NCBI RefSeq assembly: GCF_004634425.1
Contig: NZ_SBJL01000001.1
Coordinates: 97,001 to 161,000 of the forward strand
Source of the DNA: Vitreimonas flagellata
GTDB taxonomy: Bacteria; Pseudomonadota; Alphaproteobacteria; Caulobacterales; Aquidulcibacteraceae
Direction of reading: 5' to 3'
DNA: 64,000 nt
Shown here: positions 11,590 through 63,858 of the stretch, piece by piece
How positions within the stretch are numbered: position 1 is the stretch's first letter
Layout of the letters: the number at the start of each line of letters is the position of its first letter
Program-made: the position numbers and the translations under genes
Notes under the pieces: generated by a model
Seen by the model: only the letters and a program-made list of their open reading frames with translations
The model's database searches: none
Told to the model about the DNA's origin: nothing

Positions 11590-11613
11590 GAGTTGCGCCC
11601 CGTCCCCCCGCGT

Positions 11614-12761: not shown

Positions 12762-12769
12762 AGGGTAAC

Positions 12770-13186
12770 CTACCTTTCCAAACGAGGGGTCGCGGAGGGC
12801 GCCGCGCACGTGGCGCGGCGCACCGGAAAACGCGCGGCGCCGACAACGCCGTCATTGAAGGCGACGCGCAGCATGATCGAGCGCGCCGTGATGGGGCGCG
12901 GCGCATCCGCCATCATCAAGCCTGGCGCCGCGGGCAAGAGCGTGACGGCTTCGACGCCGCGCGCGGAGGCGAAGGACGCGCTCGCCGTCGCATCAAGCGG
13001 CGCGCCCGACTCATCGTGCAGGCGCACCTCGATGCGCTGCGCGCGCACCGCGAGTTCGATTTCGCCGCGTCCGATCTGACGAACAAAGCCGCCGCAATGG
13101 CCGGCCCCGGACGCCGCCGCCGGCTCTGCGGCCGCGCTGAGAAGCGCAACCGCCAACGCGGCGAAAAGCGGCGAGAGCCGGCTCAT
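12770..13186 (-). CDS. Periplasmic hypothetical protein coupled to czcA
   Basis: 138-aa protein with a signal peptide (MSRLSPLFAALAVALLSAAA) and one beta-type domain (IELAVRAQRIEVRLHDESG, ITARSIMLRVAFNDG). Two cysteines lie at opposite ends of the mature chain (AGHCGGF and RATCAAP). Its start overlaps the czcA stop, so it is translated with the pump. I do not recognise a named family; an accessory metal-binding role is inferred from position. Confidence 0.75.
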   Translation of the reverse strand: MSRLSPLFAALAVALLSAAAEPAAASGAGHCGGFVRQIGRGEIELAVRAQRIEVRLHDESGAPLDATASASFASARGVEAVTLLPAAPGLMMADAPRPITARSIMLRVAFNDGVVGAARFPVRRATCAAPSATPRLER

Positions 13187-47432: not shown

Positions 47433-48059
47433 TCAGTGCGATTGCTTTTGCGCCAGCAAGATAAGCGCAGCAGCTGGATCGGATGCCACATCGCCAAGCA
47501 ACGAAGGCATGACAGCTTTGTCTACAAGCTGGAAGCTCGCGCCGAGCACCGCGCCCCAATCCTCGGTTTCGTTGAAGGCCTGATGTGTCGGGGGACTCCA
47601 CACGAACCAGCCGCCGTCAGCAAGTATGTCGGCGATGCTGGCGCAGAAGCGGAAAAAATCGCTAGGTAATGTGGGCGCATTGAGCGCCAGCGCGACGCTG
47701 AAACCATCTTTGCTGCGAGGCGAGGGGACGCCACCTGTTACGTACCTAGGCAGCAAGCGATCGTTCCTGTCGCCCGCGTGATACTCGCCTCGCGCGAGCG
47801 CGCGAATCCCAAGCGAGCGTCCAACATCGCCATCATCGATTCCGCTTACGGGCCCATAGGCTGTGAGGCGTCCCGCAAGCCAGCCGCCCCCGCAACCGAT
47901 ATCGAGGATATCGACACTGAGCGGCTGCAGCCGAGCGAGCCAGTCGAGCGTTATCGATCCGGTCCAAATCTCAACGTCGGCCGAACGCCGCTTTCCCCGA
48001 TACGAAGCAGAATAGTCGCGATACGCCGCACGCAGAGCGCCGAACGCATCGTCGTTCAT
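47433..48059 (-). CDS. SAM-dependent methyltransferase-like protein
   Basis: 208-aa cytoplasmic protein with motif I VDILDIGCGGGWLAGRLTAY and later SVALALNAPTLPSDFFRFCA and ILADGGWFVWSPP. The start is the ATG at 48059, touching the stop of the DUF2231 gene. Sequence beyond motif I is divergent, so the substrate is unknown. The 236 bp downstream (47197-47432), before the flippase start, contain no gene I can support. Confidence 0.78.
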   Translation of the reverse strand: MNDDAFGALRAAYRDYSASYRGKRRSADVEIWTGSITLDWLARLQPLSVDILDIGCGGGWLAGRLTAYGPVSGIDDGDVGRSLGIRALARGEYHAGDRNDRLLPRYVTGGVPSPRSKDGFSVALALNAPTLPSDFFRFCASIADILADGGWFVWSPPTHQAFNETEDWGAVLGASFQLVDKAVMPSLLGDVASDPAAALILLAQKQSH

Positions 48060-48745
48060 CAGAACGCCAAGTGTCCGGCGCCGTGTGTCACTTCCGCGCC
48101 AAGATAGGCCTGAGCGAGGATCACCAGCACACTCAAAGCTAGGACTGTTTCGTAGAAGCGGCTGCCTTGGCGAACGGCGGCCTCGTCAACCGGTTTTTTG
48201 AGCCACCAAACGAAGGCGATGAGGAACGGGATCGCGGTGCCGATCCACCGGTGCAGAACAAGCGCGGATTCATCATCAGCCGCAGGAAGACCTGCATTGG
48301 CCCAACCCAATGGCGCGGCGGCAAAAGCGCCGAGCGTGGCCACAGCAAGCAAGATCTTATTGCTGGCCGCGTAGATGGGCTTGCGACGGATGGCGGCCAT
48401 CGCTTCCAAGAATGCGACGGTAAGCAGCAAGGCGATGGGAAAATGGATGACGGCTGGGTGCCACACGCCAAGCCAGCGTATGATCCTGCCTGACATGGTG
48501 GTTGGGCGGGCATCATGATCCATCATCATACCGCCCGCGCCTTCAGCGGTCGGCCATGTCATTTCGCCGGGCTGCATCGCGCCCATGTCGTGTTCGGGTG
48601 CGGCCTGCGATGCGTCGGTTTGCGCTGCTTGCGGGGGATGTTGCTCGCCGCTGTGAGCGAAAGAGATTTGTGGGGTTAGCAGCAGTAGCGAAAACGCCAC
48701 GGCCAGCACTGCCGCAATGCGGACCATCGACTTCGTGTTCGCCAT
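48059..48745 (-). CDS. DUF2231-type membrane protein with Met/His-rich N-terminus
   Basis: 228-aa protein. A signal-like N-terminus ends ISFAHSGEQH, followed by a Met/His/Asp-rich stretch (APEHDMGAMQPGEMTWP and GGMMMDHDARP). Four membrane helices follow, starting GVWHPAVIHFPIALLLTVAF, the DUF2231 hallmark. Late His residues (LHRWIG, VTHGAGH) may bind haem or copper. It follows the CusF gene by 67 bp, so it probably belongs to the same ECF-driven transcript. Confidence 0.87.
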   Translation of the reverse strand: MANTKSMVRIAAVLAVAFSLLLLTPQISFAHSGEQHPPQAAQTDASQAAPEHDMGAMQPGEMTWPTAEGAGGMMMDHDARPTTMSGRIIRWLGVWHPAVIHFPIALLLTVAFLEAMAAIRRKPIYAASNKILLAVATLGAFAAAPLGWANAGLPAADDESALVLHRWIGTAIPFLIAFVWWLKKPVDEAAVRQGSRFYETVLALSVLVILAQAYLGAEVTHGAGHLAF

Positions 48746-48812: not shown

Positions 48813-49145
48813 TCAAAGCACGTGGATTTCCGTCACCATCGGACGGCCGTTGTCGTTCATCAGCTCAAAATGAACACGCTGGCCGACGCTGACGCCTTGC
48901 AAGACGGCGGCGGAATGCACGCGGAAAGTCATCGTCATTGCTGGCCAGCCGAGGCTCGCGATCGGGCCGTGATTGAGGGTGACGGTGCCGGCCTGCGCAT
49001 CAAGGGCGGTCACCGTTCCCTCACCCTCGGCGGTTTGCGGCACCGCCTGATGGTTTTCTCCCTGATGGGCGAGGGCTGGCGCGGCCATAGCGAAGCTTGA
49101 CGCCAACGCCGCAGCAATCGCGGTGACCAGAAGTTTGCGTTTCAT
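48813..49145 (-). CDS. CusF-domain periplasmic copper-binding protein
   Basis: 110-aa protein: signal peptide (MKRKLLVTAIAAALASSFAM, ending PALA), mature start HQGENH, then the CusF domain (GTVTALDAQAGTVTLNHG, SLGWPAMTMTFRV, GVSVGQRVHFEL) with all four copper ligands. It has its own ECF-type promoter 43 bp upstream, at the 3' end of the PepSY gene. Confidence 0.92.
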   Translation of the reverse strand: MKRKLLVTAIAAALASSFAMAAPALAHQGENHQAVPQTAEGEGTVTALDAQAGTVTLNHGPIASLGWPAMTMTFRVHSAAVLQGVSVGQRVHFELMNDNGRPMVTEIHVL

Positions 49146-49188: not shown

Positions 49189-49216
49189 AATACGCGCGCG
49201 GCTTGCCAATCCCTCA
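49189..49216 (-). promoter_or_regulatory. ECF-type promoter upstream of cusF/DUF2231
   Basis: Read on the minus strand: TGAGGGAT (49216-49209), 14 bp, CGTATT (49194-49189), then 43 bp to the ATG. The same hexamer and octamer at identical spacing lie upstream of the copA oxidase gene and the anti-sigma/sensor/sigma operon. It overlaps the last codons of the PepSY gene. Confidence 0.8.
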
Positions 49217-49954
49217 GCTGTCCGCTGCGGCGCTGGCCGTCGGCCCGTTCTTGCGCCGGCGCCCGCCGCCGAACCGGATGCGGTAGGGGATGAGCACGAT
49301 GCCGGCGATGACCGACAAAAGCGTGATAGCGGTCACGATGATGATAAGAGGATGATTGAAATCCTCGTGGTTTTGCCAGTCCATGATGTGGAGCGCCCAC
49401 AACGTGTCATAGAGCCGCCAAATATCGGAGCGGCGCGCGGTGACAGCGCCAGTATTGGCGGCGACATAAACCGCCAAGCCGCCATCTGCGAATTGGGCCC
49501 GCCACGCAGGCAGGGCGCCACGATATTCTGAACTTTCGGTCTCGATCAGCTCGACCCGCGTAGGCGCCGAGGCGAGCGTTACGTGACCTCGCGCAACCGC
49601 AGTGGCGGCCTCAGCATCGAGCGGCGACAGCTGTCGAAACGTGGCGGCCTCAAAGAGTGCTGGCGGGCCGTCTGCGAACTCGGCGACGATGACTTGCCCG
49701 AGCGTGGGACGCGTCTCGATAGTCAACTTGATGGGGGCTCTGCCTTGTGCGTCGCGGAGCCCGCCTAAAGCCGGCCCATCGGCGATGGCGAGCGGAGACG
49801 CCGTCTCAGGCGGGCGTATCAAATGCTCGCTGCGGATCTGCTCGATCGGGATGATCGTAAAGAAGAGTCCGCTGACAACCCAAAAGACAATCTGCACCCC
49901 GACCAGGAGCGCAAGCCATTTATGTACAAAAGACGCCAAACGCGCGAGATTCAC
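49214..49954 (-). CDS. PepSY-domain membrane protein
   Basis: 246-aa protein starting MNLARLASFVHKWLALLVGV, with an N-terminal helix, a periplasmic region (about 35-185) containing PepSY-like segments, and a second helix near the C-terminus (HPLIIIVTAITLLSVIAGIV). His residues in LHIMDWQNHEDFNHP flank this helix, as in PepSY_TM/iron-uptake reductase-like proteins of metal clusters. A transport or reductase-accessory role is plausible. Downstream of the copA/copB genes. Confidence 0.82.
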   Translation of the reverse strand: MNLARLASFVHKWLALLVGVQIVFWVVSGLFFTIIPIEQIRSEHLIRPPETASPLAIADGPALGGLRDAQGRAPIKLTIETRPTLGQVIVAEFADGPPALFEAATFRQLSPLDAEAATAVARGHVTLASAPTRVELIETESSEYRGALPAWRAQFADGGLAVYVAANTGAVTARRSDIWRLYDTLWALHIMDWQNHEDFNHPLIIIVTAITLLSVIAGIVLIPYRIRFGGGRRRKNGPTASAAADS

Positions 49955-50031
49955 GATGTCCCCCCCCAGGTGTTCGTAGTTCTATGTCGCCCGCGGCGCT
50001 GCGCGTGCGGCGGAGCTGACTACTGCGCTGA

Positions 50032-50334
50032 TTACTGCCCCGGCGGATGCTCCATATTAGGCATGTCCGACATGTCGTGATCGGGCGTAGTTGGCGCGGG
50101 CGCGGGGGTAGGTGCAGGCGTGGGCTCAGCGCGGGGCCGCCGTGGCGCCGGCGTGCTCGGTGCGGGCGTTGCCGCCGGTTCGGTCGCGGGCGCCGTCTCT
50201 GCCGTTTGCGGCGCGGCAGGCGCGGGCTCTTGTGTCGTCACAGTGTCAGTTGGCGGGGATGCATCTTGATTGGCCGCTGGCTGGCATGCCGCAAGCGCGG
50301 CGGCGGCGAGAGCAACGATCGCGAATTTTCTCAT
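50032..50334 (-). CDS. Pro-rich lipoprotein with Met-rich tail
   Basis: 100-aa lipoprotein: MRKFAIVALAAAALAACQPA (Cys17), then a long Ala/Pro/Thr/Glu linker without structure, ending HDMSDMPNMEHPPGQ, a short Met/His/Asp tail suited to Cu(I). No catalytic domain. The start at 50334 is chosen for the signal; nine upstream codons are in frame. It follows copB by 23 bp in the ECF-driven copper operon. Confidence 0.78.
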   Translation of the reverse strand: MRKFAIVALAAAALAACQPAANQDASPPTDTVTTQEPAPAAPQTAETAPATEPAATPAPSTPAPRRPRAEPTPAPTPAPAPTTPDHDMSDMPNMEHPPGQ

Positions 50335-50357
50335 TGTCGATTTCCTTCTGGAGTTGT

Positions 50358-51536
50358 TCAAAACCAGGCGCGGATGCCCAAGACCAAACGGGTGTCTTCC
50401 GCGTCTTCGCCTCTCGCTTCAACGTAATCGCGCGTGTCCCCGAAGCTGCTTGACCACTCGATCCCGACATAAGGTGCGAATTCGCGTCGGATTTCGTAGC
50501 GCAAGCGCACGCCCAGTTCTGCGTTCGTGAGGCCAGCGCCCGTTGCAAGTTCGGGAACGTCCTCGGCCGAAAAGTCGATCTCGGCGCGCGGCTGCAGAAT
50601 GAGGCGCTGGGTTAAACGCAGATCGTATTCGGCTTCAGCGCGTGCGCTCAACTCGCCTTCATTGGACAAGAATGCCGCGACATCGACCTCGAACCAATAG
50701 GGCGCAAGACCTTGCACCCCGACGACAAGATCGGTGCGATCAGCGTCGGGTGTATAACGCTGGCGGACGCCCGCTTGGAAGTCAAAGTAGGGCGTGAATG
50801 CGCGACTGTAGAGCGCTTCAATTTCGCCGCTTTCCAGTTCGCCGTTGATGGCGCCTTCGCCCTCGCTCTTCCACCAGAAGCGGTTGATGTCGCCGCCATA
50901 CCAGCCCTGTGCGTCCCAGACATAGCCGTCCGCGCCATCGCCGAACGTCGCCTCAAGACGATCGAGAATGACGACACTGGTGCGGATGTCGCCATTCTCA
51001 ACCAGCAATTGCTCGCGCGCGGCAGCCATTTGCTGAGCATCGAAGTAAAGATCGGCCGCGTGCGCGGGGCCTGCGCCTGCAGCAGCCGGAGGAGGCGGCT
51101 CGGGTGGTCGCCCCGCATTGTCGGCGCTGGTCTCCACATTGGGCATCATCGTCATGCCAGTCATGTCTTGACCGGCCTCGCTTGGGGGCGTTTGCGGCCA
51201 GGCCATCTCGGGCATCGTCGACATGTCGTGTCCAGCATGTGGATCGGGCTGGGTCGCCTGCGGCATGGTCATGCCCGGCATGGTGTGGCCGGCGTGTGGA
51301 TCAGGCGTCGCTGACGGCATGGTCATGCCAGGCATGTCATGGGCCGGCGCCTGCGGATCGGGTTGTGTGGCCTGCGGCGCTGGCATCGTATGGCCTGCAT
51401 GCGGATCGACAGTTTGAGCCGGTTGCGCAGTCGCTGGAGGCGTTTGCTGGTGGGCGGAATGATCGCTTGTTTGCGCAAGCGCGGGGCTTGCGACCGCGAG
51501 CACAAGCGGGGTGAGGGTGGCGGCGAAAAATCTCAC
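50358..51536 (-). CDS. copB: Copper resistance protein CopB with Met/His-rich N-terminus
   Basis: 392-aa outer-membrane protein. After the signal peptide, about 100 residues repeat units such as DPHAGHTMPGMTMPQATQP and HDMPGMTMP, a Cu-binding Met/His region. The CopB barrel follows from about residue 165 (LYFDAQQMAAAREQLL, RFWWKSEGEGAINGELESGE) to the terminal GIRAWF. Its start overlaps the copA stop by 4 bp. Paralogous to the shorter CopB at 38203-38955. Confidence 0.93.
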   Translation of the reverse strand: MRFFAATLTPLVLAVASPALAQTSDHSAHQQTPPATAQPAQTVDPHAGHTMPAPQATQPDPQAPAHDMPGMTMPSATPDPHAGHTMPGMTMPQATQPDPHAGHDMSTMPEMAWPQTPPSEAGQDMTGMTMMPNVETSADNAGRPPEPPPPAAAGAGPAHAADLYFDAQQMAAAREQLLVENGDIRTSVVILDRLEATFGDGADGYVWDAQGWYGGDINRFWWKSEGEGAINGELESGEIEALYSRAFTPYFDFQAGVRQRYTPDADRTDLVVGVQGLAPYWFEVDVAAFLSNEGELSARAEAEYDLRLTQRLILQPRAEIDFSAEDVPELATGAGLTNAELGVRLRYEIRREFAPYVGIEWSSSFGDTRDYVEARGEDAEDTRLVLGIRAWF

Positions 51537-53359
51537 GAGACGTCTCCGTCAAGCGGACGGATGGTCACGACGTTGAACATGCCCGCATGCATGTGAAGCA
51601 AGAGGTGGCAATGAAACGCCCAATCGCCAGGATTATCGGCGGTGAGGTCGAAAGTCACCTTGCCGCCCGGCGCGACATTCACAGTGTGCTTCAAGGGCTG
51701 GTGACCGTCATGGCCGTTGACCAGTTCGAAGAAGTGGCCGTGGAGGTGAATGGGATGCGACATCATCGTGTCGTTGACCAGCGTCACGCGTACGCGCTCG
51801 TTTCGCTCAAACCGGATTGGTTCGACCAGTTCGCTGAAGCGGCGCCCGTCAAAGCCCCACATGAAACGTTCCATATTGCCGGTGAGGTGAATCTCCATCG
51901 TCCGGGAGGGCGCACGGCGGTCGCGATTGGGCGTCAGTGCGATGAGGTCGGTGTAGACGAGAACACGGTGATCGACGTTTTCGAGCCCCAGCGGGCGCTC
52001 GCCCATCCGGTTTTGCGGCATCGGCGAAATTGTTTGGACGCCGACGCCGACCGCCATGTCTGGCGGGGCGTTTTCTGGGTCGCGCATATTCATGGCACCC
52101 ATGTCCATACTCGAATGATCCATAGCGTTCGCGCCAGCGCCCATGTCGTGGTTCATCCCGGCCATGCCACTCATGTCCATGCCTGAGTGGTCCATACCGG
52201 GCATGGCGCCGGACATATCCATGCCGCCCATCCCGCCCATATCCATGCCCATGTCGCGCATGGTGAGATTTGGGACTTCGCGTAGTGGCGGGACCTCAGC
52301 GCTCATGCCAAGCCGTGGCGCCAAGGTGGCGCGGCCCATCCCGGAGCGGTCTATGGCTTCGGAGACAATCGTGTAAGCGCGGTCTTCGGTCGGTGTGACA
52401 ATGACGTCGTAGGTTTCAGCGACGGAAATTTGGAATTCATCGGTTTCGACAGGTCGCACGTTTTCGCCGTCGGCTTGGACGACGGTCATGGCGAGGCCCG
52501 GAATGCGCACGTTGAAGATCGACATCGCCGAGGCGTTGATGATGCGCAGCCGCACGCGCTCGCCGGGACGAAAGAGACCCGTCCAGTTTTCGTCAGGCCC
52601 ATGACCATTGATCAAATACGTGTAGGTTGAGCCGCTGACGTCGAGCACGTCGCGCGGGTCCATACGCATTTCAGCCCACATGCGCCGGTCGGCGGCGCTC
52701 ATCCGGTCTTCACCTGAAAGGAGGCCCGCCACCGTCGTTCGTTGATAATTGAAATAGCCGGGGCTTTGCTTCAGGCGCGCCAAGATCTGGTGCGGATGCA
52801 TGAAGCTCCAGTCCGACAAAACGAGCACATGTTCGCGGTCGTATTCGATCGGATCGCGCGAAGCCGGATCGATGATGATCGGTCCGTAATGGCCTAATGC
52901 TTCCTGCAGGCCTGAATGGCTATGATACCAAAACGTGCCCGCCTGAATGATCGGGAACTCATAGACGAAGGTTTCCCGCGGACGGATGCCCGGAAAGCTG
53001 ATCCCCGGCACGCCGTCCATTTGGAAGGGAAGCAGGATACCGTGCCAATGGATCGAAGTGTCTTCGTCGAGCGTGTTGGTGACGGCGAGGCGGACGTTTT
53101 GGCCTTCTCTCAACCGCAACAACGGGGCTGGCAGCGTGCCGTTGATGGTCACGGCGTGTCCGGTTCTCCCGCCCACCGTAAAAGGTGAGCGGCCGATGCT
53201 TAGCGCCACATCGGGGCCGGTGAAGGTGGTCATGGCCGGCGCGATGCCGGGCGAGCCCGTCTGGGCCCAAGCAGGAAGCACGCTCTCGAACGCCAGCCAG
53301 CCGGCTCCCACGCCCGCAGCCTTCAATAGCGATCGACGGTCGAGGGCCTTGCGCACCAT
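51533..53359 (-). CDS. copA: CopA-type periplasmic multicopper oxidase
   Basis: 608-aa Tat-exported oxidase (signal DRRSLLKAAGVGAGW) that oxidises Cu(I) and sequesters copper. Copper ligands are complete: IHWHGILLP (about 103), WYHSHSG (about 145), HPIHLHGHFFE (about 535) and HCHLLLHMHAGM (about 581). A Met/Asp/His-rich insert (about 365-425, for example GMDMGGMGGMDMSGAMPGMD) is typical of the PcoA/CopA branch. It is the first gene of an operon with copB, a lipoprotein and PepSY, with an ECF promoter 37 bp upstream. Confidence 0.95.
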   Translation of the reverse strand: MVRKALDRRSLLKAAGVGAGWLAFESVLPAWAQTGSPGIAPAMTTFTGPDVALSIGRSPFTVGGRTGHAVTINGTLPAPLLRLREGQNVRLAVTNTLDEDTSIHWHGILLPFQMDGVPGISFPGIRPRETFVYEFPIIQAGTFWYHSHSGLQEALGHYGPIIIDPASRDPIEYDREHVLVLSDWSFMHPHQILARLKQSPGYFNYQRTTVAGLLSGEDRMSAADRRMWAEMRMDPRDVLDVSGSTYTYLINGHGPDENWTGLFRPGERVRLRIINASAMSIFNVRIPGLAMTVVQADGENVRPVETDEFQISVAETYDVIVTPTEDRAYTIVSEAIDRSGMGRATLAPRLGMSAEVPPLREVPNLTMRDMGMDMGGMGGMDMSGAMPGMDHSGMDMSGMAGMNHDMGAGANAMDHSSMDMGAMNMRDPENAPPDMAVGVGVQTISPMPQNRMGERPLGLENVDHRVLVYTDLIALTPNRDRRAPSRTMEIHLTGNMERFMWGFDGRRFSELVEPIRFERNERVRVTLVNDTMMSHPIHLHGHFFELVNGHDGHQPLKHTVNVAPGGKVTFDLTADNPGDWAFHCHLLLHMHAGMFNVVTIRPLDGDVS

Positions 53360-53396
53360 GTTGCTCCACTCTGAGAAAAACCCGACAGTATCTTAG

Positions 53397-53424
53397 AATA
53401 CGCGCGCTTCGGCGCGATCCCTCA
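53397..53424 (-). promoter_or_regulatory. ECF-type promoter upstream of the copA oxidase operon
   Basis: Minus-strand TGAGGGAT (53424-53417), 14 bp, CGTATT (53402-53397), 37 bp before the copA start. Octamer and hexamer are identical to the site at 49189-49216 and spacing equals that at 56959-56986. Confidence 0.82.
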
Positions 53425-53452
53425 GCCCTTACGCCTGAGATTGGCGCCAGGA

Positions 53453-53480
53453 TGCGGGAAATCGGCAACCGGCGCGTAAA
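53453..53480 (+). promoter_or_regulatory. Possible weaker ECF-type promoter, divergent from copA
   Basis: TGCGGGAA, 14 bp, CGTAAA on the plus strand, 37 bp before the ATG at 53518. It keeps spacing and core GGG / CGTA of the stronger sites but differs at several bases. Listed as tentative. Confidence 0.35.
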
Positions 53481-53517
53481 CGCCAATAGATGCAGCACTG
53501 AAAAAGGGGAGGCGTGG

Positions 53518-53994
53518 ATGCTGAAGAAATTGATCGTCGTTTTTGTCGCGGCCTGGGCCATGGCGGGCGCGGCGGCGGCACAGCCCAGCGCCGACGAGGC
53601 GGCCGTGGAAGCGGTCCTCTCAGGTTACCGGCAAGCGGTTGAGGCCCGCGACGGCGAGGCGGCCGCACGCTACTTCTGGCCGGACTCGCAAGTCTTCGAG
53701 CAAGGCGGCGTCGAGGGCGATTTTGCCACCTACCTTGCTCACCACTTGGGGCCCGAACTGCTCGAAATCGCCAGCTTTGATTTTGACGGCCTTGAGACTG
53801 ACGTCGAAGTGGTGGGGGATCTCGCTTACGCCAGCGAAGTCTACACTTACGAAATCACGTTCCCTCAAGCCGCAGCCCGCGCGCCGATTTCACGTCGCGG
53901 AGTCGCCACCAGCGTGTTGCAGCGTCGCGGCGACGCGTGGCGTATCGTCGTCTATCATTCCTCCGCTCGTGCACCGCGGCCGCCAGCAAACTAA
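53518..53994 (+). CDS. Secreted NTF2/SnoaL-like protein
   Basis: 158-aa protein with a signal peptide (MLKKLIVVFVAAWAMAGAAA, cleavage before QPSADEA). An NTF2-like fold is suggested by AAVEAVLSGYRQAVEARDGE, RYFWPDSQVFEQGGVEGDFA, and VLQRRGDAWRIVVYHSSA at the end. The start is the ATG at 53518 after AAGGGGAGG. Members of this type are found beside copper oxidase genes, but their function is not known. Divergent from copA. Confidence 0.85.
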   Translation: MLKKLIVVFVAAWAMAGAAAAQPSADEAAVEAVLSGYRQAVEARDGEAAARYFWPDSQVFEQGGVEGDFATYLAHHLGPELLEIASFDFDGLETDVEVVGDLAYASEVYTYEITFPQAAARAPISRRGVATSVLQRRGDAWRIVVYHSSARAPRPPAN

Positions 53995-54023
53995 GGGCGA
54001 TCAGCGCTGCTCGTTTCGTGCGT

Positions 54024-54872
54024 TCACAAGCGGGCTCGGCGGGACCTGAACGCCGCCAGATGCTGGCGCCAAAAACCACGTGGGTAATCGGCGTCACGCA
54101 GACCTAATTCGTCGGCGGCGACGCCGCGGCGATCGTCATGCGCTGTTCCGAAGAGCCAATCCCAAATGAGCAAGACCTCGCCGAAATTGACTTGGGCGTC
54201 CTCGTAGTCACGCTTGTGGTGCCAGCGGTGCATCTCGGCGACGCCCAACAGGCGGCGGAATGGTCCGAGTGTGTAGTCGATATTGGCGTGCTGGAAAGCC
54301 AGATGCACCGGCAGAATCGCAAACCATGCGGCAAGCGCTGCCTGCGGCGCGCCAAGAACCGCCACAGCGACAAGTCCTGGCGTCGCCAGAAGGAGCGCGC
54401 TCACCAAATGGCGGCGCTCACCGTTCAGCCAATAGAGACGTTCGGGGCTGTGATGAGGCTGATGGAAACGCCAAAGAATTGCCGAGCGATGGCTCCAGCG
54501 ATGCATCCAATAGAGGCCGAAATCGATAACAATTCCGACGCCGAGAACGCTGGCCCAGAGTGGCCATGTGTTGGGCCAAAGTCCGCGTGACAGCGCCGCT
54601 GTGCTGAGCGGGTAGATGAAATGCACGCTCGCCTGAATAAGAGCCGCACCCATAAGATTATACTGGATGTCAGCCCAGAGATCGCCGTGGTTCTTGGTCC
54701 AGGCCTGCTGATATGGCGAGAGCCGCTCCAGTCCCCCAATCACAAGCGCGCCGGCAAGCGTCAGAATGGGTAGAGCAATGGCGGCGCCCGGCGAGGCGGC
54801 CAACGTCACGGCGCCAATAGATACGATCCCGATGATGAGCGGGTAAGCTAGATAGCGAACGGCAAGGCGCAT
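54024..54872 (-). CDS. Fatty acid hydroxylase / sterol desaturase-like membrane protein
   Basis: 282-aa membrane di-iron protein. His motifs appear in order: YWMHRWSHRS, RFHQPHHSPERLYW and MHRWHHKRD. Four or more helices. The start is the ATG at 54872 with AGGAGACC upstream; a longer reading into the AraC gene is rejected. It lies 58 bp after the AraC gene and may be the end of the ECF-controlled operon. Lipid modification under copper stress is a guess. Confidence 0.87.
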   Translation of the reverse strand: MRLAVRYLAYPLIIGIVSIGAVTLAASPGAAIALPILTLAGALVIGGLERLSPYQQAWTKNHGDLWADIQYNLMGAALIQASVHFIYPLSTAALSRGLWPNTWPLWASVLGVGIVIDFGLYWMHRWSHRSAILWRFHQPHHSPERLYWLNGERRHLVSALLLATPGLVAVAVLGAPQAALAAWFAILPVHLAFQHANIDYTLGPFRRLLGVAEMHRWHHKRDYEDAQVNFGEVLLIWDWLFGTAHDDRRGVAADELGLRDADYPRGFWRQHLAAFRSRRARL

Positions 54873-54930
54873 TGGGGTCTCCTCGCGTCCAAGTTGGCGA
54901 GGGCCGTCCCTTAAGGCTTGAACGAAACAG

Positions 54931-55671
54931 CTACATTTCGTCGAATTTGATCGCGCCCGTGATGGTGAGCGGGCTTGCGCCAAACATGCGCACGCAAGTC
55001 CGCGAGAAGTGAGCCGAGTCTGCAAAGCCGCCATGATGAGCGGCCTCGGTGAGCGAAAGGCCCTGGGCGACGCCGGTCATGGCGCGGCGGAGCTTTGACC
55101 AAAGCAGGAAAGACCGGATCGGCATCCCGATTTCATCGCGAAAAAGGTGCGCGGCGCGTGATTGCGAGAGATTGAGAGCGCGCGCGATTGCGCGCGCGTC
55201 AAGTGGCGCCTCGCTCTCGTGAAAGGCGGCGAGCGCTCTACCAATGCGAGCGTCGCGGGTTGGCGCAATCTCCGCCGCGCCCAACAAATGGGCTAGTCGC
55301 TCGGATGGATCGGCGTCTTCATCCGCGATCGAGGTTTCAACAATGGTGGCTAATTCTTCTGCTTGGACCGGGGACAGCACGCTGATCCGATCGCCGATTG
55401 CATGAGCGATCCGCCGCCCGGATGGGCTGTCGGGATCGACGTAGAGAAAGCTGCTGGGATATGCAGCCGTAGCGCGGTGGGCCAGGTTGGCGGGCGCCAC
55501 AAATCCTTGGCCGTGATGTTGCCCGCTTGCGTCCACGAGCAGAGCGTGGGGGCCAGCGAATGCTTGAATGGCGTGGTGGCTATGAAAGTCATTGTCGCCT
55601 GCAGCGCCCAGGAATGCGGCCCACCACGGCCCGATGCGTGCTGCGCCGCGCCATTGGGCGGCTTTATTCAT
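54931..55671 (-). CDS. AraC-family transcriptional regulator
   Basis: 246-aa regulator. The N-terminal half is cupin-like with several His (NDFHSHHAIQAFAGPHALLV), a possible ligand or metal sensor. The C-terminal half is a double HTH: ARAIARALNLSQSRAAHLF then SLTEAAHHGGFADSAHFSRT, followed by FGASPLTITG. Its start overlaps the sigma gene by 8 bp, so sensor, anti-sigma, sigma and AraC are co-expressed. Targets unknown. Confidence 0.87.
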   Translation of the reverse strand: MNKAAQWRGAARIGPWWAAFLGAAGDNDFHSHHAIQAFAGPHALLVDASGQHHGQGFVAPANLAHRATAAYPSSFLYVDPDSPSGRRIAHAIGDRISVLSPVQAEELATIVETSIADEDADPSERLAHLLGAAEIAPTRDARIGRALAAFHESEAPLDARAIARALNLSQSRAAHLFRDEIGMPIRSFLLWSKLRRAMTGVAQGLSLTEAAHHGGFADSAHFSRTCVRMFGASPLTITGAIKFDEM

Positions 55672-56224
55672 CGCGAAGCGCCCGTGCGAGAGCGACTTTG
55701 GCGCGGTAGACGCGCGTTTCGACCGCTTTGGTCGTCAAATTCAGCACGCGCGCCGCGTCATGATGGCTCATGCCGCTAATCGCCGTTAGCAGCAGTGGCT
55801 CTTTCAGACCCGCCGGCAAGGCTGCAATCGCGGAATCGAGCCGTGCAAGGTTGCGTTGCAAGGCTTCATCGCTTGAATCTGTTGTGGCGGCGATATCTGG
55901 GGATGTCTCGATACTTTCGGCGCCGAAGAAGAAGCGCCGGACGGCGCGGCGGCGGGCCCAGTCGCGGCATTTGTTGAGCGCGATCCGCTTGACCCACGCG
56001 GGAAATGGACGGTCCTTGTCATAACGAGCAAGCGCCAGCCAGGCAGCGGCAAACGCTTCCTGTGTGAGGTCATAGGCTTCGTCGGCGTCGGCGACATAGG
56101 AGCGCACGAACCGATAGACCTTCTCCTTGTGGCGGCGCATGAGCAGAGAAAATGCCGCCTCCTGACCGGCGAGCGCCGCGGCCACGAGCGAAGCGTCATC
56201 GCTTTCGGGCGATGGGACGCTCAT
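55664..56224 (-). CDS. ECF sigma factor (CnrH-like), likely driver of the copper regulon
   Basis: 186-aa sigma. Region 2: RRHKEKVYRFVRSYVADADE, AYDLTQEAFAAAWLALARYD, FPAWVKRIALNKCRDWARRR. Region 4: LPAGLKEPLLLTAISGMSHH, DAARVLNLTTKAVETRVYRA. It overlaps the CnrX-like gene upstream by 4 bp. Order anti-sigma, sensor, sigma matches cnrYXH of Cupriavidus. The recurring TGAGGGNT-N14-CGTANY promoters in the window, including one before its own operon, are its probable targets. Confidence 0.9.
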   Translation of the reverse strand: MSVPSPESDDASLVAAALAGQEAAFSLLMRRHKEKVYRFVRSYVADADEAYDLTQEAFAAAWLALARYDKDRPFPAWVKRIALNKCRDWARRRAVRRFFFGAESIETSPDIAATTDSSDEALQRNLARLDSAIAALPAGLKEPLLLTAISGMSHHDAARVLNLTTKAVETRVYRAKVALARALRDE

Positions 56225-56658
56225 TGCGGCTCGGTGGTCAACGCCTCAACGACGGTGTCGTCGAAAATCGCCTTCTGCTCATCGTTCAAGACCTCGCGCA
56301 TCGCAAACATGTGAGCGATGGTTTCGGTCTGCAGCCGTCCCATCGCACCATGAAATCTCTCGACGGCAGCGGCCACCCTTGGACCATTCTCGTGCTCTTC
56401 GCGGATGGCCGCGGCCAGTTCCGCGTTCGCGGAGCGCATTTCAAGTTCAAGCGCGTGCTTGCGGGCGGCGAATGCTGCCTCCAGCGTCTCAATTCTAGCG
56501 AGTTGATCGCCGCTCAACTCCAGCCGGTGATGCACGACATCGTGCATGGAGGGGGCGGGCGCAGGCGCTAGCGCCTTCATGCCTAACCAGACCCCGCCAA
56601 AGCCTGCCGCCAGCGCCACCAGGGCCGTCACCAAGATGGCCCGAACCGAAAGTTTCAA
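56221..56658 (-). CDS. CnrX/ZraP-like periplasmic heavy-metal sensor
   Basis: 145-aa protein with an N-terminal membrane anchor (VRAILVTALVALAAGFGGVW) and a helical periplasmic domain (SMHDVVHHRLELSGDQLARI, EERHEN-like EHENGPRVAAAVERFHGAMG). In CnrX, His and Glu residues of the first helices bind Ni or Co; here HDVVHH could serve. Coupled to the anti-sigma and sigma genes. A paralogue is at 63412. The neighbouring copper genes suggest Cu rather than Ni, which is inference. Confidence 0.87.
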   Translation of the reverse strand: MKLSVRAILVTALVALAAGFGGVWLGMKALAPAPAPSMHDVVHHRLELSGDQLARIETLEAAFAARKHALELEMRSANAELAAAIREEHENGPRVAAAVERFHGAMGRLQTETIAHMFAMREVLNDEQKAIFDDTVVEALTTEPQ

Positions 56659-56933
56659 CGATCATCCCCGAGCAATGTTGAGGGCGCATAAGCCGCGTGG
56701 ACCGCGAACGGCGAGAGGTCGCTTTCGGGGCGGGCCACGGCGCTGCCCGCGAACACGCCGAACGTGAGCATTACGGCTGCCAGACCCGCCTGCCAGCGCC
56801 AACCGCGCGTTTGTCCAACACGTATCCGCGCGCCTTCGATCCGGCCCCACACCCGAGGCTCCAGCTGATCGAGCCGGTGGTCAAGGGGACGGTCGCGAAG
56901 CGCTGACAGCAATCGTTCAAGATCAACGTTCAT
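56655..56933 (-). CDS. CnrY-like small membrane anti-sigma factor
   Basis: 92-aa protein. The N-terminal cytoplasmic part (MNVDLERLLSALRDRPLDHR) would hold the sigma. One helix (WQAGLAAVMLTFGVFAGSAV) and a short periplasmic tail (LSPFAVHAAYAPSTLLGDD) could contact the CnrX-like sensor. First gene of the operon, 25 bp downstream of an ECF-type promoter. Assignment rests on size, topology and order. The partial gene at the right edge has a related C-terminus. Confidence 0.8.
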   Translation of the reverse strand: MNVDLERLLSALRDRPLDHRLDQLEPRVWGRIEGARIRVGQTRGWRWQAGLAAVMLTFGVFAGSAVARPESDLSPFAVHAAYAPSTLLGDDR

Positions 56934-56958
56934 GGTCTCTAACTCTTGTTCCACCAGC

Positions 56959-56986
56959 AATACGCACGATTGCGCCGGAACCCTCA
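56959..56986 (-). promoter_or_regulatory. ECF-type promoter upstream of the cnrYX-sigma operon
   Basis: Minus-strand TGAGGGTT (56986-56979), 14 bp, CGTATT (56964-56959), 25 bp before the anti-sigma ATG. ECF operons usually transcribe themselves, so this is the best anchor for assigning the motif to the sigma at 55664-56224. Confidence 0.83.
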
Positions 56987-56999
56987 AGGGGCCTCTGCT

Positions 57000-57027
57000 T
57001 GAGGGGTTTGGACAGGCGCTGCGTAGC
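57000..57027 (+). promoter_or_regulatory. ECF-type promoter for the methyltransferase/DUF411 operon
   Basis: Plus-strand TGAGGGGT (57000-57007), 14 bp, CGTAGC (57022-57027), 46 bp before the ATG at 57073. It lies back-to-back with the site at 56959-56986, 13 bp apart, giving a divergent pair. Confidence 0.7.
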
Positions 57028-57072: not shown

Positions 57073-57783
57073 ATGGATCAACCGATTGTTGTTCAGCAGG
57101 CGTACTGGAACGACTGGAACGCGGCCAAGAACGAGCGCCCGCTCTCTGACATTTCCGCCGATCAGCGCGAGTTGGTGGTGCAATGGCTGTCCGAGATTGG
57201 GCGCACCGACCTTAAAATTCTTGAGGTCGGATGTGGGGCAGGCTGGCTTTGCCCCTCGCTGAAGCCATTTGGAAAAGTCACCGCCACCGATCTCTCCGAC
57301 GCGGTGCTTCGCGGGGCGGCGGAGCGCGTCCCTGATGTTAAGTTCGTCGCCGGCGATTTCATGGAAGTCGACTTGGGGAGCGAACAGTTTGATGTGATCG
57401 TCAGCCTCGAAGTGCTGTCGCATGTGGCTGATCATCCGGCCTTCATGGGCAAACTCGCCAGCCTTTTGCGCCCAGGAGGGCTGCTGATGTTGGCCACGCA
57501 AAACCGTCCGGTGCTTGAGAAGCACAATATTGTACCGCCGCCCGCGCCAGAGCAATTGCGCAATTGGGTCGATCGCGATGAATTGACGGCGTTGCTGATG
57601 CCGCACTTTGAGATACGGCGACTGCGATCCATATCTGCTACGGCCAACAAGGGCTTTTATCGGCTCATTCTCGGGCGCAAAGCCAAGCGCGCTATGCGCA
57701 CAGTGTTTGGACGGAGCCTCGAAAACGCGATGGCGCGAGCGGGATTGGGTTGGACGCTCATTACGCTTGCGCGAAAACGCTGA
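57073..57783 (+). CDS. Class I SAM-dependent methyltransferase (paralogue of 6942-7655)
   Basis: 236-aa enzyme: MDQPIVVQQAYWNDWNAAKN, motif I LEVGCGAGWLCPSLKPFG, VTATDLSDAVLRGAAERVPD, SLEVLSHVADH and PGGLLMLATQNRPV, ending WTLITLARKR. It matches the minus-strand gene at 6942-7655 along its length. Heads a plus-strand operon with DUF411 and pyruvyl transferase genes, behind an ECF-type promoter. Substrate unknown. Confidence 0.88.
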   Translation: MDQPIVVQQAYWNDWNAAKNERPLSDISADQRELVVQWLSEIGRTDLKILEVGCGAGWLCPSLKPFGKVTATDLSDAVLRGAAERVPDVKFVAGDFMEVDLGSEQFDVIVSLEVLSHVADHPAFMGKLASLLRPGGLLMLATQNRPVLEKHNIVPPPAPEQLRNWVDRDELTALLMPHFEIRRLRSISATANKGFYRLILGRKAKRAMRTVFGRSLENAMARAGLGWTLITLARKR

Positions 57784-57802
57784 AGCAAAGTTAGGACAGC
57801 AT

Positions 57803-58270
57803 TTGAACCGCCGCGGACTTTTATCAACCACCATTTTGTTGCTCGCTGCCAGCGTGACGCCCGGCTGCGCGCAAGAGGTGCAAGCGACACCGATGCAGGT
57901 GCGGCGCGACGCCGGGTGCGGGTGTTGCGAAGTATGGACCCAGCAAATGGGGGCGAGCGGACGTTTTCGTACAACACTCGTCAACGAAGCGGATATGGGC
58001 GCGTTGAAGCGCCATCTGGGCGTGCCCGACGATCTTGCCTCATGTCATACCGCAGAGGTGGAAGGCTTTGTGATTGAAGGCCACGTGCCAGTGCGCGAAA
58101 TCATCCGGCTCATTGAAGACCGTCCGGCCGGCGTCCGAGGACTTGCGGTCGCCGGCATGCCCGCGGGTTCGCCCGGCATGGAAATGCCGGATGGGCGGCG
58201 CGACGCCTTCGATGTCGTAGCATTCGGCGCCGAACGGAGCGTGTTTGCGAGCTATCCCGCTTCGGCCTGA
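57803..58270 (+). CDS. DUF411 metal-binding protein (paralogue of 37698-38186)
   Basis: 155-aa exported protein starting at a TTG at 57803 with AGGA nine bases upstream. A signal peptide (LSTTILLLAASVTPGCAQE) is followed by the DUF411 core: RRDAGCGCCEVWTQQMGASG, LASCHTAEVEGFVIEGHVPV and GMPAGSPGMEMPDGRR. Cys and His positions agree with the paralogue. It lies 19 bp after the methyltransferase gene and shares its ECF-type promoter. Confidence 0.88.
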   Translation: MNRRGLLSTTILLLAASVTPGCAQEVQATPMQVRRDAGCGCCEVWTQQMGASGRFRTTLVNEADMGALKRHLGVPDDLASCHTAEVEGFVIEGHVPVREIIRLIEDRPAGVRGLAVAGMPAGSPGMEMPDGRRDAFDVVAFGAERSVFASYPASA

Positions 58271-58280
58271 TGCAGCACCG

Positions 58281-59444
58281 ATGAGCTGGCGGCGGCGCAT
58301 AGTTGTTTTTGGCGCTTATGGCGGTGGCAACTTTGGCAATGATGCGTGTTTCGAGGCCACGCTCGAATGGCTGCGCACAGCCTTCACCAATGCGTCGATC
58401 CTGGCTGTTTGCGTCGATCCGGAGCTCACATCAAAGCGATTTGGAATTCCGGCAGTTAGCTTGAGGTCTGCATCGGTCCTGCCGCGTTGGTTGGACACAT
58501 TGCTGCTGCGCCAGCCCAGCCTCTGGCTGAATTGGCTGGTCTGTCTTCGCGCGTTGAAGCGCTGTGATCTCTTGGTCGTCGCCGGCACCGGCGCCATTCA
58601 TGATTTCCGTGACCGCCCCTGGGGATGGCCCAGCCGCTTCTTGCGCTGGATACTTGCCGCGCGTCTACGCGGCGCATCCGTTTGGTTTGCCTGCGTTGGC
58701 GCGGGTCCGGTTCTCAACCCGGTCAGCCGATTGATGATGGTCTGGGCGGCAAAGCTCGCGGCCCGGCGCTGCTACCGTGACGAGAGCTCTCGGGCCTACA
58801 TGAGCGCGCGCGGGGTGGATGAAAGCCAGAGCCTGGTCACCGGCGATATCGCCTTCTTGCTGCCCGCGCCGACGCCAAACGATCGCGTCGTCGAACAAGC
58901 TGTCGTTGGCGTCGGTGTCATGAACTATCGAGGTTGGCGCACCAACGAAAAGGTCTATCGCGCCTACATCGAAAGCATCGCCCATCTTATCGAATGGCTG
59001 AAATTCAAGGAGCACAAGGTTCGCATTCTGATCGGTCAACGGCCGACTGATCTCATCGCCGTCGGCGATCTTGAAGCGCGCTTAGGCTATACGCTTATGA
59101 GCGATGCTGAGCGTCAAGTCCGCTCATATCAAGACATCTTGAGTGTGGTCGCCGACACTGATGTGGTCGTGGCGTCACGTTACCATGTGCAGATTGCCGC
59201 CCTCAAAATGCGCCGCCCGGTGCTCTCGATCAGCTATGGACCCATGAACGACGATTTGATGCGCGCCGCGGGGCTTGGCGAGTTCATTCATGACATCGAG
59301 CACATGGAACATCGCGCGCTCATTTTGCAGTGCGACCGACTGATCAATATGCGCGTTCACTACGCAAAGGCCGTGCAAACGGAAATCAAGGCATTGGAGA
59401 TGGGGCTGCATGAGCGACTGCGAGACTTCATTTCGCCTTCCTAA
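58281..59444 (+). CDS. Polysaccharide pyruvyl transferase-family protein
   Basis: 387-aa cytoplasmic protein: N-terminal VVFGAYGGGNFGNDACFEA, middle FACVGAGPVLNPVSRLMMVW, C-terminal VVVASRYHVQIAALKMRRPV followed by LSISYGP, the family layout for enzymes that add pyruvate ketals to surface polysaccharides. It starts at the ATG at 58281, 10 bp after the DUF411 gene. Its end overlaps the convergent cueR gene by 17 bp. Acidic pyruvyl groups could bind metal at the surface, but that is speculation. Confidence 0.87.
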   Translation: MSWRRRIVVFGAYGGGNFGNDACFEATLEWLRTAFTNASILAVCVDPELTSKRFGIPAVSLRSASVLPRWLDTLLLRQPSLWLNWLVCLRALKRCDLLVVAGTGAIHDFRDRPWGWPSRFLRWILAARLRGASVWFACVGAGPVLNPVSRLMMVWAAKLAARRCYRDESSRAYMSARGVDESQSLVTGDIAFLLPAPTPNDRVVEQAVVGVGVMNYRGWRTNEKVYRAYIESIAHLIEWLKFKEHKVRILIGQRPTDLIAVGDLEARLGYTLMSDAERQVRSYQDILSVVADTDVVVASRYHVQIAALKMRRPVLSISYGPMNDDLMRAAGLGEFIHDIEHMEHRALILQCDRLINMRVHYAKAVQTEIKALEMGLHERLRDFISPS

Positions 59445-59880
59445 TCCGGTTTGGCGCGCGTGTGGATTTCGTCGTGGGCGTGGAGGGGGCCGGCGTGGCC
59501 GCAAGGTCGTCGAGAATCGGGCACTCGGGACGATCGTCGCCGTGGCAGGCATGGACAAGCCGCTTCAGCGTCCGCGACACCGCTCGCATGTCCGCTATGC
59601 GGGCGTCGATGTCGGCCAGGTGCTTTTCAGCAAGGCGGCGCACCTCGCGCGAGGACCGGCGCCGGTTGCGCCAAAGCGTCAGCAACGAGGCGACCTCGTC
59701 AAGCGAGAAACCCAAATCCCTGGTCCGCCGGACGAACTGGAGCATCGCGACTTCCATGTCGCCATAGTCGCGATAGCCGTTGTCGCGACGGTCGGCCGCT
59801 TCAATGAGGCCTATGCTCTCATAATAGCGGATCATCTTCGCCGATACGCCCGATTGCTCGGCGGCCATGCTGATGTTCAT
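59428..59880 (-). CDS. cueR: CueR-type copper-responsive MerR regulator
   Basis: 150-aa regulator: MNISMAAEQSGVSAKMIRYY winged helix, coiled-coil, then the Cu(I) loop HACHGDDRPECPILDDL with Cys112 and Cys120, exactly as in CueR. A basic tail (about 130-150) is longer than in E. coli. Divergent from the copA ATPase gene, with a CueR-type operator in between. Confidence 0.94.
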   Translation of the reverse strand: MNISMAAEQSGVSAKMIRYYESIGLIEAADRRDNGYRDYGDMEVAMLQFVRRTRDLGFSLDEVASLLTLWRNRRRSSREVRRLAEKHLADIDARIADMRAVSRTLKRLVHACHGDDRPECPILDDLAATPAPSTPTTKSTRAPNRIRKAK

Positions 59881-59907
59881 TTGGAATTCGCTCGTGAATT
59901 TTTCCCG

Positions 59908-59938
59908 TTGACCTTCCCATTGTGGGAAGGTGCAGATT
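59908..59938 (+). promoter_or_regulatory. CueR operator-promoter of copA
   Basis: -35 TTGACC (59908-59913), 19-bp spacer, -10 CAGATT (59933-59938). The dyad ACCTTCCCA-N3-TGGGAAGGT (59911-59931) is the consensus CueR box. It reads into the Cu ATPase gene starting at 59985. Confidence 0.95.
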
Positions 59939-59984
59939 GCTTTTCAAGTCAAACCAGGAGCGCGAGCGCTCGCGTTAGTCAGCT

Positions 59985-63411: not shown

Positions 63412-63858
63412 TTATTCTTCGTCCACGCCGCGCAGCAATTCCTCGCGCACGATCATGTCGAACCGCGCCTGTTGATCGGCATTGAGCACAGCGCGCATTT
63501 CGAAGACGTGCGCGATAGCGTCTCTTTGGGTTTGGCCCATGGCGTTGTGAAACCGATCAATCGCTTGGCTGAGGCGCTCACTCTGGGCGTGATCCTCGGC
63601 CACTGCGGCAGCGATGTCGCGCGCGGCTGCGCGCAGCTCAGCGTCAAGGGCGCCCTTGCGCAGGGCGTAACCGGCTTCGATTGCTTCCAGACGCTGGTCC
63701 TGTTCAGGCGTCAGATCAAGTTCGCGATGGACCGCTGCATCGAGCGTGTCCCGATGGGCGTCGGAACGCGTGAGCATTGTCCCGACAAAGACGCCCCCCA
63801 GCCCAGAGCCGAACCCGACGAGTGCTGCGAGCGCCAGCAGCTTCCAAGTTTTCGGCAT
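63412..63858 (-). CDS. CnrX/ZraP-like periplasmic heavy-metal sensor (second copy)
   Basis: 148-aa protein paralogous to 56221-56658. N-terminal anchor (LLALAALVGFGSGLGGVFVG), then a helical periplasmic domain: LDAAVHRELDLTPEQDQRLE, AVAEDHAQSERLSQAIDRFH, NAMGQTQRDAIAHVFEMRAV. The ending REELLRGVDEE is acidic. It follows a CnrY-like gene, but no sigma gene follows on this strand, unlike the first copy. Confidence 0.87.
   Translation of the reverse strand: MPKTWKLLALAALVGFGSGLGGVFVGTMLTRSDAHRDTLDAAVHRELDLTPEQDQRLEAIEAGYALRKGALDAELRAAARDIAAAVAEDHAQSERLSQAIDRFHNAMGQTQRDAIAHVFEMRAVLNADQQARFDMIVREELLRGVDEE

Follow-up and report, generated by a model that had tools for sequence, protein, structure and literature searches.

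We are confident that the sites described here are CnrH-type ECF promoters, at which a sigma factor released from a CnrYX pair would drive its own operon together with periplasmic copper defence, and that a paralogous set would act alike. Motif counts and conservation, homology to CnrH and NccX/CnrX, and likeness to promoters of Cupriavidus metallidurans, all read from sequence, point to a CnrH-type promoter set placed before periplasmic copper genes. This short, strictly spaced signal before copper-defence genes is very probably the switch that a regulator resembling a nickel sensor reads.

Promoter sites in the window and the genome

The window, i.e. the whole stretch of 64,000 nucleotides from Vitreimonas flagellata that was analysed, contains the following features.

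48059..48745, minus: DUF2231 membrane protein (PF09990)
48813..49145, minus: CusF-like periplasmic copper-binding protein (PF11604)
49189..49216, minus: ECF promoter site TGAGGGAT-N14-CGTATT of the cusF/DUF2231 unit
50358..51536, minus: copB-like gene, named CopB by context, without NCBIfam match
51533..53359, minus: copA, copper-resistance multicopper oxidase (TIGR01480, E 1.8e-249)
53397..53424, minus: ECF promoter site of copA-copB, exact match
53453..53480, plus: weaker site TGCGGG-N16-CGTA before the NTF2-like gene
53521..53994, plus: NTF2/SnoaL-like protein (DUF4440)
54931..55671, minus: AraC-family regulator, overlapping the sigma gene
55664..56224, minus: CnrH-like ECF sigma factor
56221..56658, minus: CnrX-like periplasmic metal sensor (PF13801)
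56655..56933, minus: CnrY-like candidate anti-sigma factor, 92 aa
56959..56986, minus: ECF promoter site of the cnrY-cnrX-sigma operon, putatively autoregulatory, exact match
57000..57027, plus: ECF promoter site of the divergent unit, CGTAGC form, exact match
57073..57783, plus: SAM-dependent methyltransferase
57608..58270, plus: ORF with DUF411 (PF04214), whose true start probably lies inside the ORF
58281..59444, plus: polysaccharide pyruvyl transferase (PF04230)

The four exact sites had been proposed in a first-pass annotation, and each matches its pattern at these coordinates and strands with no mismatch; CGTATT is common to three of them and the fourth reads CGTAGC. The window contains exactly these four matches, compared to none in 100 dinucleotide shuffles of it, and the genome (3,914,734 bases) contains five, compared to none for the reversed pattern. 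The deduced consensus comprises a -35 box TGAGGG(a)T, 16 bases between TGAGGG and CGTA, and a -10 box (T/C)GCGTAT. A genome scan, which the first-pass annotation had suggested and which was carried out by pattern, yielded seven matches to TGAGGG-N16-CGTA in 3.9 Mb and one for the reversed control. Four are the window sites, two belong to a paralogous sigma locus and one lies elsewhere, i.e. six of the seven are found at the two sigma/copper loci.

The window motif is genuine and far above chance expectation. Chance similarity in G+C-rich intergenic DNA might be argued from the scan with one mismatch, where matches stay at background level (15 in the genome, 16 in the control) and degenerate matches therefore carry no meaning alone. 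As a source of the exact sites, however, chance is refuted by the shuffles (none), the reversed controls (none or one), the fixed spacer and the conservation across genera, and we give it practically no credence.

The start codons of cusF, copA, cnrY and the methyltransferase gene follow the end of the -10 box by 26-46 positions. If transcription starts 8 bases after this box, the leaders would measure 36, 30, 18 and 38 nt, respectively. The upstream ORF 49214-49954 ends with the TGA of the site at 49189..49216. The weaker site before the NTF2-like gene, also listed in the first-pass annotation, is present and differs from the proposed pattern at three positions. All seven relatives with an NTF2-like protein of 74% identity or more keep this site, and all seven more distant homologues (29-47%) lack it.

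Conservation in relatives

The proposal of a shared ECF promoter motif is borne out by the 80 best relatives of the window sigma factor, where 169 exact sites occur in 75 loci and none in the control; five relatives have no exact site. All 169 have the 16-base spacer, and any other spacer from 8 to 24 gave 0-6 sites. Positions that were not selected by the search are conserved as well: among 157 distinct sites, G precedes CGTA in 95% and a pyrimidine precedes that G in 94%, T occupies position 8 in 78% and T follows CGTA in 68%. The link to copper oxidation genes also recurs. Copper genes of the copA, copB or cusF type are present at 74 of the 80 loci and copB-homologous ORFs in 70 of the 80 relatives, and an exact site lies no more than 200 bases upstream of 45 of 71 related copA genes (one-mismatch site at 8 others). 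Of the 85 operons with enough upstream sequence, 53 (49/77 of relatives) have an exact promoter with the 16-base spacer and 9 others a promoter with one mismatch. In a clade composed mostly of Hyphomonadaceae, the operon promoter is of the TGCGTG type. At the level of the order, genomes with the sigma factor (n=27) contain 4.81 sites each compared to 1.37 in the control, and those without it (n=73) 2.33 compared to 1.59, somewhat above control. Among the matches listed for sigma-bearing genomes, 48 of 96 lie more than 12 kb from a sigma gene. One genome (G054) has 15 matches and no sigma at E 1e-34.

Alternatively, the motif could be the operator of a classical transcription factor, either the AraC-type regulator of the operon, whose gene overlaps that of the sigma factor, or a CopR-like response regulator. 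However, just 13 of 89 loci, the window included, contain an AraC homologue while the motif was found in 75 of 80, and an operator for the AraC-type regulator was rejected on this basis. Besides, two unlike half-sites at fixed spacing with a start codon close by fit -35 and -10 boxes, and mapped CnrH promoters show the same layout. An operator is thus very improbable.

In three congeners with an orthologous sigma factor (89-97%) the four-site arrangement was compared with the window. All three have exact sites before cusF, before copA and before the operon, and two also have the divergent one before the methyltransferase gene; each cusF orthologue (91-97%) has its site about 46 bases upstream. 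When the three congeners and the window are compared, with the boxes themselves fixed by the search, at least one site set shows variation at 14 of 16 spacer columns; only positions 8 and 22 never change, and these are the positions that are conserved although the search did not select them. Two additional copA copies in these congeners (G077:C12, G033:C30) lack such a sigma gene nearby, and no exact site occurs on either contig. A further congener (G053) has a sigma factor of only 58% identity and lacks both cusF and the methyltransferase gene, and therefore provides no test of site decay without the sigma factor.

Sigma factors, sensor and anti-sigma factor

The first-pass annotation had named the sigma factor at 55664-56224 as the natural candidate by autoregulation and called the operon CnrYXH-like. 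Both views agree with our results, as the site before the operon recurs in relatives and the sigma factor is closest to CnrH among solved ECF sigma factors (4cxf, E 5.5e-34; next best 2.3e-19). CnrH belongs to group ECF20. The sensor is closest to NccX/CnrX, with NccX as best-scoring solved relative (4clv, E 4e-15). All five CnrX metal-ligand positions, which we take to include H42, H46, E63 and H119 of CnrX, are present in the window sensor as H39, H43, E60, H116 and M120. The CnrX ligand M123 is described in PMC7689651. This HHEHM set is kept in 81 of 89 aligned sensor rows, some of which are duplicates. The order anti-sigma factor, sensor, sigma factor is the same in the window, at the paralogous locus and on pMOL28. 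The CnrY-like protein gave no BLAST match to or alignment with CnrY; its size, single hydrophobic segment and position agree with a class II anti-sigma factor, and its C-terminus is conserved (S-x-F-A ... APSTLL).

The attribution to one sigma factor did not hold. The genome encodes a paralogous CnrY-CnrX-sigma set whose sigma factor (C1:1038554-1039090) is 63% identical to that of the window and near-identical in the segments likely to read DNA (NKCRDW.RRRAVR, KAVE.R.YRAK). Three more sites of the same type stand before the operon of this set, a copA-copB pair belonging to it and a small ORF rich in His and Met; one of the three deviates from TGAGGG-N16-CGTA by a single mismatch. Therefore, either sigma factor may read the sites, and the two sets probably overlap in their targets. 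The genome scan with one mismatch is informative only for two clustered sites at this locus. That the paralogue reads the sites mainly or equally, making one cross-regulated copper network of two systems, is a serious possibility that we rate below even. The near-identical segments and the three sites in its own locus speak for it. Against it, congener G077 keeps the four sites with the orthologue and a distant third sigma factor only, having no 58-63% paralogue at E 1e-34, and the paralogue is therefore not needed for site persistence. The third, more distant CnrH-like sigma factor (46%, C1:161431) lies just beyond the window end; it was rejected as owner of the exact sites, as only a two-mismatch CCAGGG-N16-CGTA is found upstream of it.

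For the CnrH-type system we propose that the operon supplies the sigma factor together with an anti-sigma factor in the membrane and a metal sensor in the periplasm. Metal at the CnrX-type site would loosen CnrY and free the sigma factor, which would then switch on its own operon, the copA multicopper oxidase with copB, cusF and DUF411, as well as the methyltransferase/pyruvyl transferase unit and probably the NTF2-like gene. The paralogous set would use the same promoter type.

Inducing metal and comparison with known systems

Copper as inducer would follow from the target genes only; it does not follow from the sensor, since this keeps the nickel/cobalt ligand set. Nickel, cobalt or several metals may be sensed instead, with the copper genes under a general periplasmic metal alarm. 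The five conserved ligand positions favour this, as does Sphingobium sp. ba1, in which CopA, CopB and CopC are nickel-induced (PMC5557971); the word sigma is absent from the main text of that paper. However, the recurrent neighbours are copper genes (74/80 loci), and no RND nickel pump was found among the window targets searched against Pfam or NCBIfam. We regard this alternative as possible but lean against it.

The closest known system is CnrYXH of C. metallidurans pMOL28, which responds to nickel and cobalt. It shares with the window the gene order Y-X-H, a homologous sigma factor and sensor and the five ligand positions. It has one promoter ahead of the operon and another immediately behind the sigma gene, an arrangement also seen at the paralogous locus and in many relatives. 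The -10 CGTAT and the AGGGG-containing -35 box are common to both systems. At the cnrY and cnrC promoters CCGTATA lies 6-7 bases before the mapped starts (PMC9045368), with CAAGGGG or CGAGGGG upstream. In contrast, the -35 box is TGAGGG with spacer 16 in the window but CAAGGG/CGAGGG with spacer 17 in CnrYXH, and no relationship to CnrY can be recognised in the anti-sigma sequence. The CnrYXH target is the cnrCBA efflux pump, whereas copA-copB, cusF and others are the window targets; the site-bearing units adjacent to the operon are the copper genes and the methyltransferase/DUF411/pyruvyl transferase unit, and not an RND nickel/cobalt pump. Likewise, NccX is a nickel-cobalt-cadmium sensor, yet its relative stands here in a copper gene context.

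Other ECF systems have been linked to copper. CorE of Myxococcus is copper-dependent and, as proposed here, controls a multicopper oxidase (PMC8999054, PMC10141476). It binds copper via its own Cys-rich C-terminal extension, whereas the window sigma factor (186 aa) ends after region 4 without such an extension and is accompanied by a separate CnrX-type sensor. SigF-NrsF of Caulobacter, an ECF system from the Alphaproteobacteria, also plays a role in copper tolerance, but it has another anti-sigma factor and a regulon of DUF692/DUF2282 and methionine-sulfoxide-reductase genes (PMC8224329). For the copper-responsive SigAb-AabA/AabB of Acinetobacter a CnrH/CnrY-like binding mode was modelled; the available part of that report names no CnrX-type sensor and places copA/copB in the indirect regulon (PMC12153292). 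In a literature search of partial coverage we recognised no description of a CnrYXH system that is linked to copper and uses this motif, and the main ECF classification (PMC7826278) may already include a group for which a similar motif is predicted.

The occurrence of this arrangement in many related bacteria suggests a widespread, perhaps undescribed control of periplasmic copper defence; at least one conjugative plasmid, pSES220 of Sphingobium yanoikuyae SHJ with its three sites, carries the system. Tentatively, a CnrX-type sensor that keeps the nickel ligands unchanged might be the master switch of this defence across Sphingomonadales and Caulobacterales, with a regulon that also remodels cell-surface glycan by pyruvyl transferase, acyltransferases and methyltransferases. 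If so, metal stress would change the envelope besides oxidising copper. For a large group of environmental bacteria, our analysis links copAB-type copper resistance to a candidate regulator and to a precisely defined promoter code. It raises a question of metal selectivity, as a sensor with CnrX nickel/cobalt ligands appears to guard copper genes, and the motif would make much of the regulon readable directly from genomes.

Promoter motif in the window, the genome and related loci

The first-pass annotation had placed putative ECF promoters ahead of four units in the window, and all four sites were exact at the places described, with the motif TGAGGG-N16-CGTA.

49189-49216: site ahead of cusF/DUF2231
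53397-53424: site ahead of copA-copB
56959-56986: site ahead of cnrY-cnrX-sigma
57000-57027: site ahead of the divergent methyltransferase/DUF411/pyruvyl transferase unit
55664-56224 (-): CnrH-like ECF sigma factor
56221-56658 (-): CnrX-like sensor
56655-56933 (-): CnrY-like protein
53453-53480 (+): weak fifth site, before the NTF2-like gene 53521-53994 (+)

The stricter pattern of the annotation did not occur in 100 dinucleotide shuffles of the window. The genome scan it had proposed gave five exact matches versus none for the reversed control (whole assembly, 3,914,734 bases, 16 contigs), while TGAGGG-N16-CGTA was matched seven times genome-wide versus once for the control. With one mismatch allowed the count was 15 versus 16 in the control; therefore, we trust only sites that are exact or independently conserved. 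The seventh genome site (L128 1501-1526; G000:C1:189308-189333, minus) lies antisense, toward the 3' end of an ORF resembling, by eye, cyclopropane-fatty-acid synthase, with no clear gene after it, and possibly belongs to a small or antisense RNA. Two congeners have it as well: G058 is almost identical over the whole stretch, and in G033 conservation appears higher in the site and downstream of it than ahead of it. At window 59428-62405 an ORF that looks MerR-like by eye and a copper P-type ATPase gene are divergently oriented. This region holds no exact motif copy and seems to be a separate cytoplasmic copper circuit beside the sigma regulon.

Scanning of related loci, likewise suggested by the annotation, revealed 169 sites, spread over 75 of the 80 loci (904,897 bases), and none for the reversed pattern. 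These loci are the best 80 of 335 sigma relatives, picked by sigma similarity with near-duplicates included, and according to their titles belong mostly to Sphingomonadales and Caulobacterales. Each other spacer length from 8 to 24 gave 0-6 matches, compared with 169 for 16. Position statistics were based on 157 distinct sites out of 179 in 83 loci, three plasmid loci having been added. At positions not selected on, a G preceded CGTA in 95% and a pyrimidine preceded that G in 94% of the distinct sites, position 8 was T in 78%, and T followed CGTA in 68%. Of the 85 loci whose upstream sequence was long enough, 53 had an exact operon promoter, always with a spacer of 16 (49 of 77 when restricted to the 80 relatives), and nine others had one that was one mismatch off; a mostly Hyphomonadaceae group has a TGCGTG form. 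Copper genes of the copA, copB or cusF type were present in 74 of the 80 loci, and of 71 copA genes, 45 had an exact site no more than 200 bases upstream and eight others a one-mismatch site. At window 49214-49216 and at 12097-12099 of the paralogous locus L016, the preceding gene ends on the TGA of the -35 box, which serves as its stop codon. Among the relatives, 25 of 169 sites terminate a reading frame that is open for 150 codons or more; the TGAGG background is 5.9%.

The weak fifth site, also noted at first pass, reads TGCGGG-N16-CGTA in the window. All seven close relatives, taken as those whose NTF2-like protein shares at least 74% identity, have it too, at a distance of 36-42 bases from the ATG. 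One 74.5%-identical relative keeps it despite a diverged spacer, and it occurred in none of seven more distant NTF2-like homologues. The largely conserved intergenic region in close relatives weakens this argument; judged from sequence, the site is probably functional.

Congeners and the order

Four further genomes of the genus were sampled. In three of them (G033, G058, G077) the sigma is orthologous (89-97%) and there are four exact sites, arranged as in the window, the site preceding cusF (91-97%), copA (93-96%) and the operon in each. In G033 and G058 the divergent site lies ahead of the methyltransferase gene. It is kept in G077 (C2:52706) with no methyltransferase homologue after it, and in a related record with the same sites (L038) a 302-aa ORF follows instead. 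The gene downstream of the divergent promoter seems exchangeable. Box invariance across congeners is by construction, since the sites came from an exact search; of the 16 spacer columns, 14 show variation in one or more site sets, and the invariant ones, positions 8 and 22, are those conserved in the wider set. Two other copA copies, G077:C12 (70%) and G033:C30 (51%), have no sigma of this kind in the vicinity, and their contigs had no exact site. In the fourth genome, G053, the sigma is only 58% identical, and its locus has two sites and a copA of 49%; this genome is without cusF and the methyltransferase gene and therefore cannot test site loss along with the sigma.

In 100 genomes of the order, with sigma presence set at E 1e-34 or better, the 27 sigma-bearing genomes had a mean of 4.81 motif matches versus 1.37 for the control, and the 73 others showed a slight excess (2.33 versus 1.59). 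Among the matches listed (96, from 19 of the 27), 48 lay within 12 kb of a sigma and the other half farther away. G054 had 15 matches and no sigma homologue at E 1e-34.

Relation to the CnrYXH system and paralogous sets

The best solved relative of the sigma is CnrH (4cxf, E 5.5e-34; next 2.3e-19), and those of the sensor are NccX (E 4e-15) and CnrX (1.5e-14). The window sensor has all five CnrX metal-ligand positions, as do 81 of the 89 rows of the alignment, in which duplicates are counted; the methionine ligand, described as required for signalling (PMC7689651), is kept in 83. On the C. metallidurans plasmid pMOL28, transcription of cnrY and cnrC is reported to start 23-25 bases ahead of each gene (PMC9045368). 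In both promoters CCGTATA stands 6-7 bases in front of the mapped start, and farther upstream lie CAAGGGG and CGAGGGG. The motif of the window closely resembles this CnrH promoter, and its spacer is shorter by one base. Similarity of the CnrY-like protein to CnrY was not detectable; its size, position and one hydrophobic segment fit CnrY. Five CnrY-like sequences (the window and four relatives) share a C-terminal S-x-F-A ... APSTLL, a segment that presumably lies in the periplasm and perhaps contacts the sensor.

The fifth exact match of the stricter pattern led to L016, and a third set spans the window end.

G000:C1:1027001-1044000, features 10438-14787: L016, CnrY-like, CnrX-like, sigma, then copA and copB
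TGAGGGGTTTGCGGCCATAATGCGTATT: L016 site starting at the sigma-gene stop codon, ahead of copA
TGAGGGAAATCAACAGATGGCGCGTAAT: L016 site ahead of the cnrY-like gene
GGAGGG-N16-CGTA (one mismatch): third L016 site, in the opposite direction, toward a small His/Met-rich ORF
Window 63412-63858: sensor of the third CnrYXH-like set; L037 5412-6973 (G000:C1:160412-161973)

The L016 sigma is 63% identical to the window sigma and nearly the same in the segments that should recognise the -10 and -35 boxes. The third sigma (46%) lies just past the window end, divergent from its CnrX- and CnrY-like genes; in its sensor, which is still within the window, Asp replaces the first His ligand, and the site nearest to this sigma has two mismatches. 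By eye, this set adjoins acetate kinase- and phosphoketolase-like ORFs. With these extra CnrH-like sigmas in the genome, assigning all sites to a single sigma, as first proposed, is not safe.

Inducing metal and breadth of the regulon

By homology, metal would bind the periplasmic sensor and free the sigma, which would then act on the copper genes as well as on its own operon. The target genes would make copper the inducing metal; the sensor ligands resemble the nickel/cobalt site. Nickel was reported to induce CopA, CopB and CopC in Sphingobium sp. ba1 (PMC5557971). The component parts of the system are already known; a copper-linked CnrYXH variant with its promoter code was not found in the literature searched, which lay outside the central ECF classification.

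Exact sites in relatives also precede copC, DUF305, Acyl_transf_3 acyltransferase and methyltransferase genes, an automatic and lenient assignment in which methyltransferase is a generic call. Eight of ten scanned representatives matched these families, the rest being one other protein and a CnrY-like ORF. In eight Caulobacter-type loci (L045, L051, L052, L062, L064, L069, L070, L074), the ORFs that follow exact sites carry, close to their start, MYPNDIRPLTSLRI or a near variant; the only one scanned, in L051, is an Acyl_transf_3 acyltransferase. Together with the window pyruvyl transferase, the acyltransferases and methyltransferases of the relatives hint that the regulon may include envelope remodelling.
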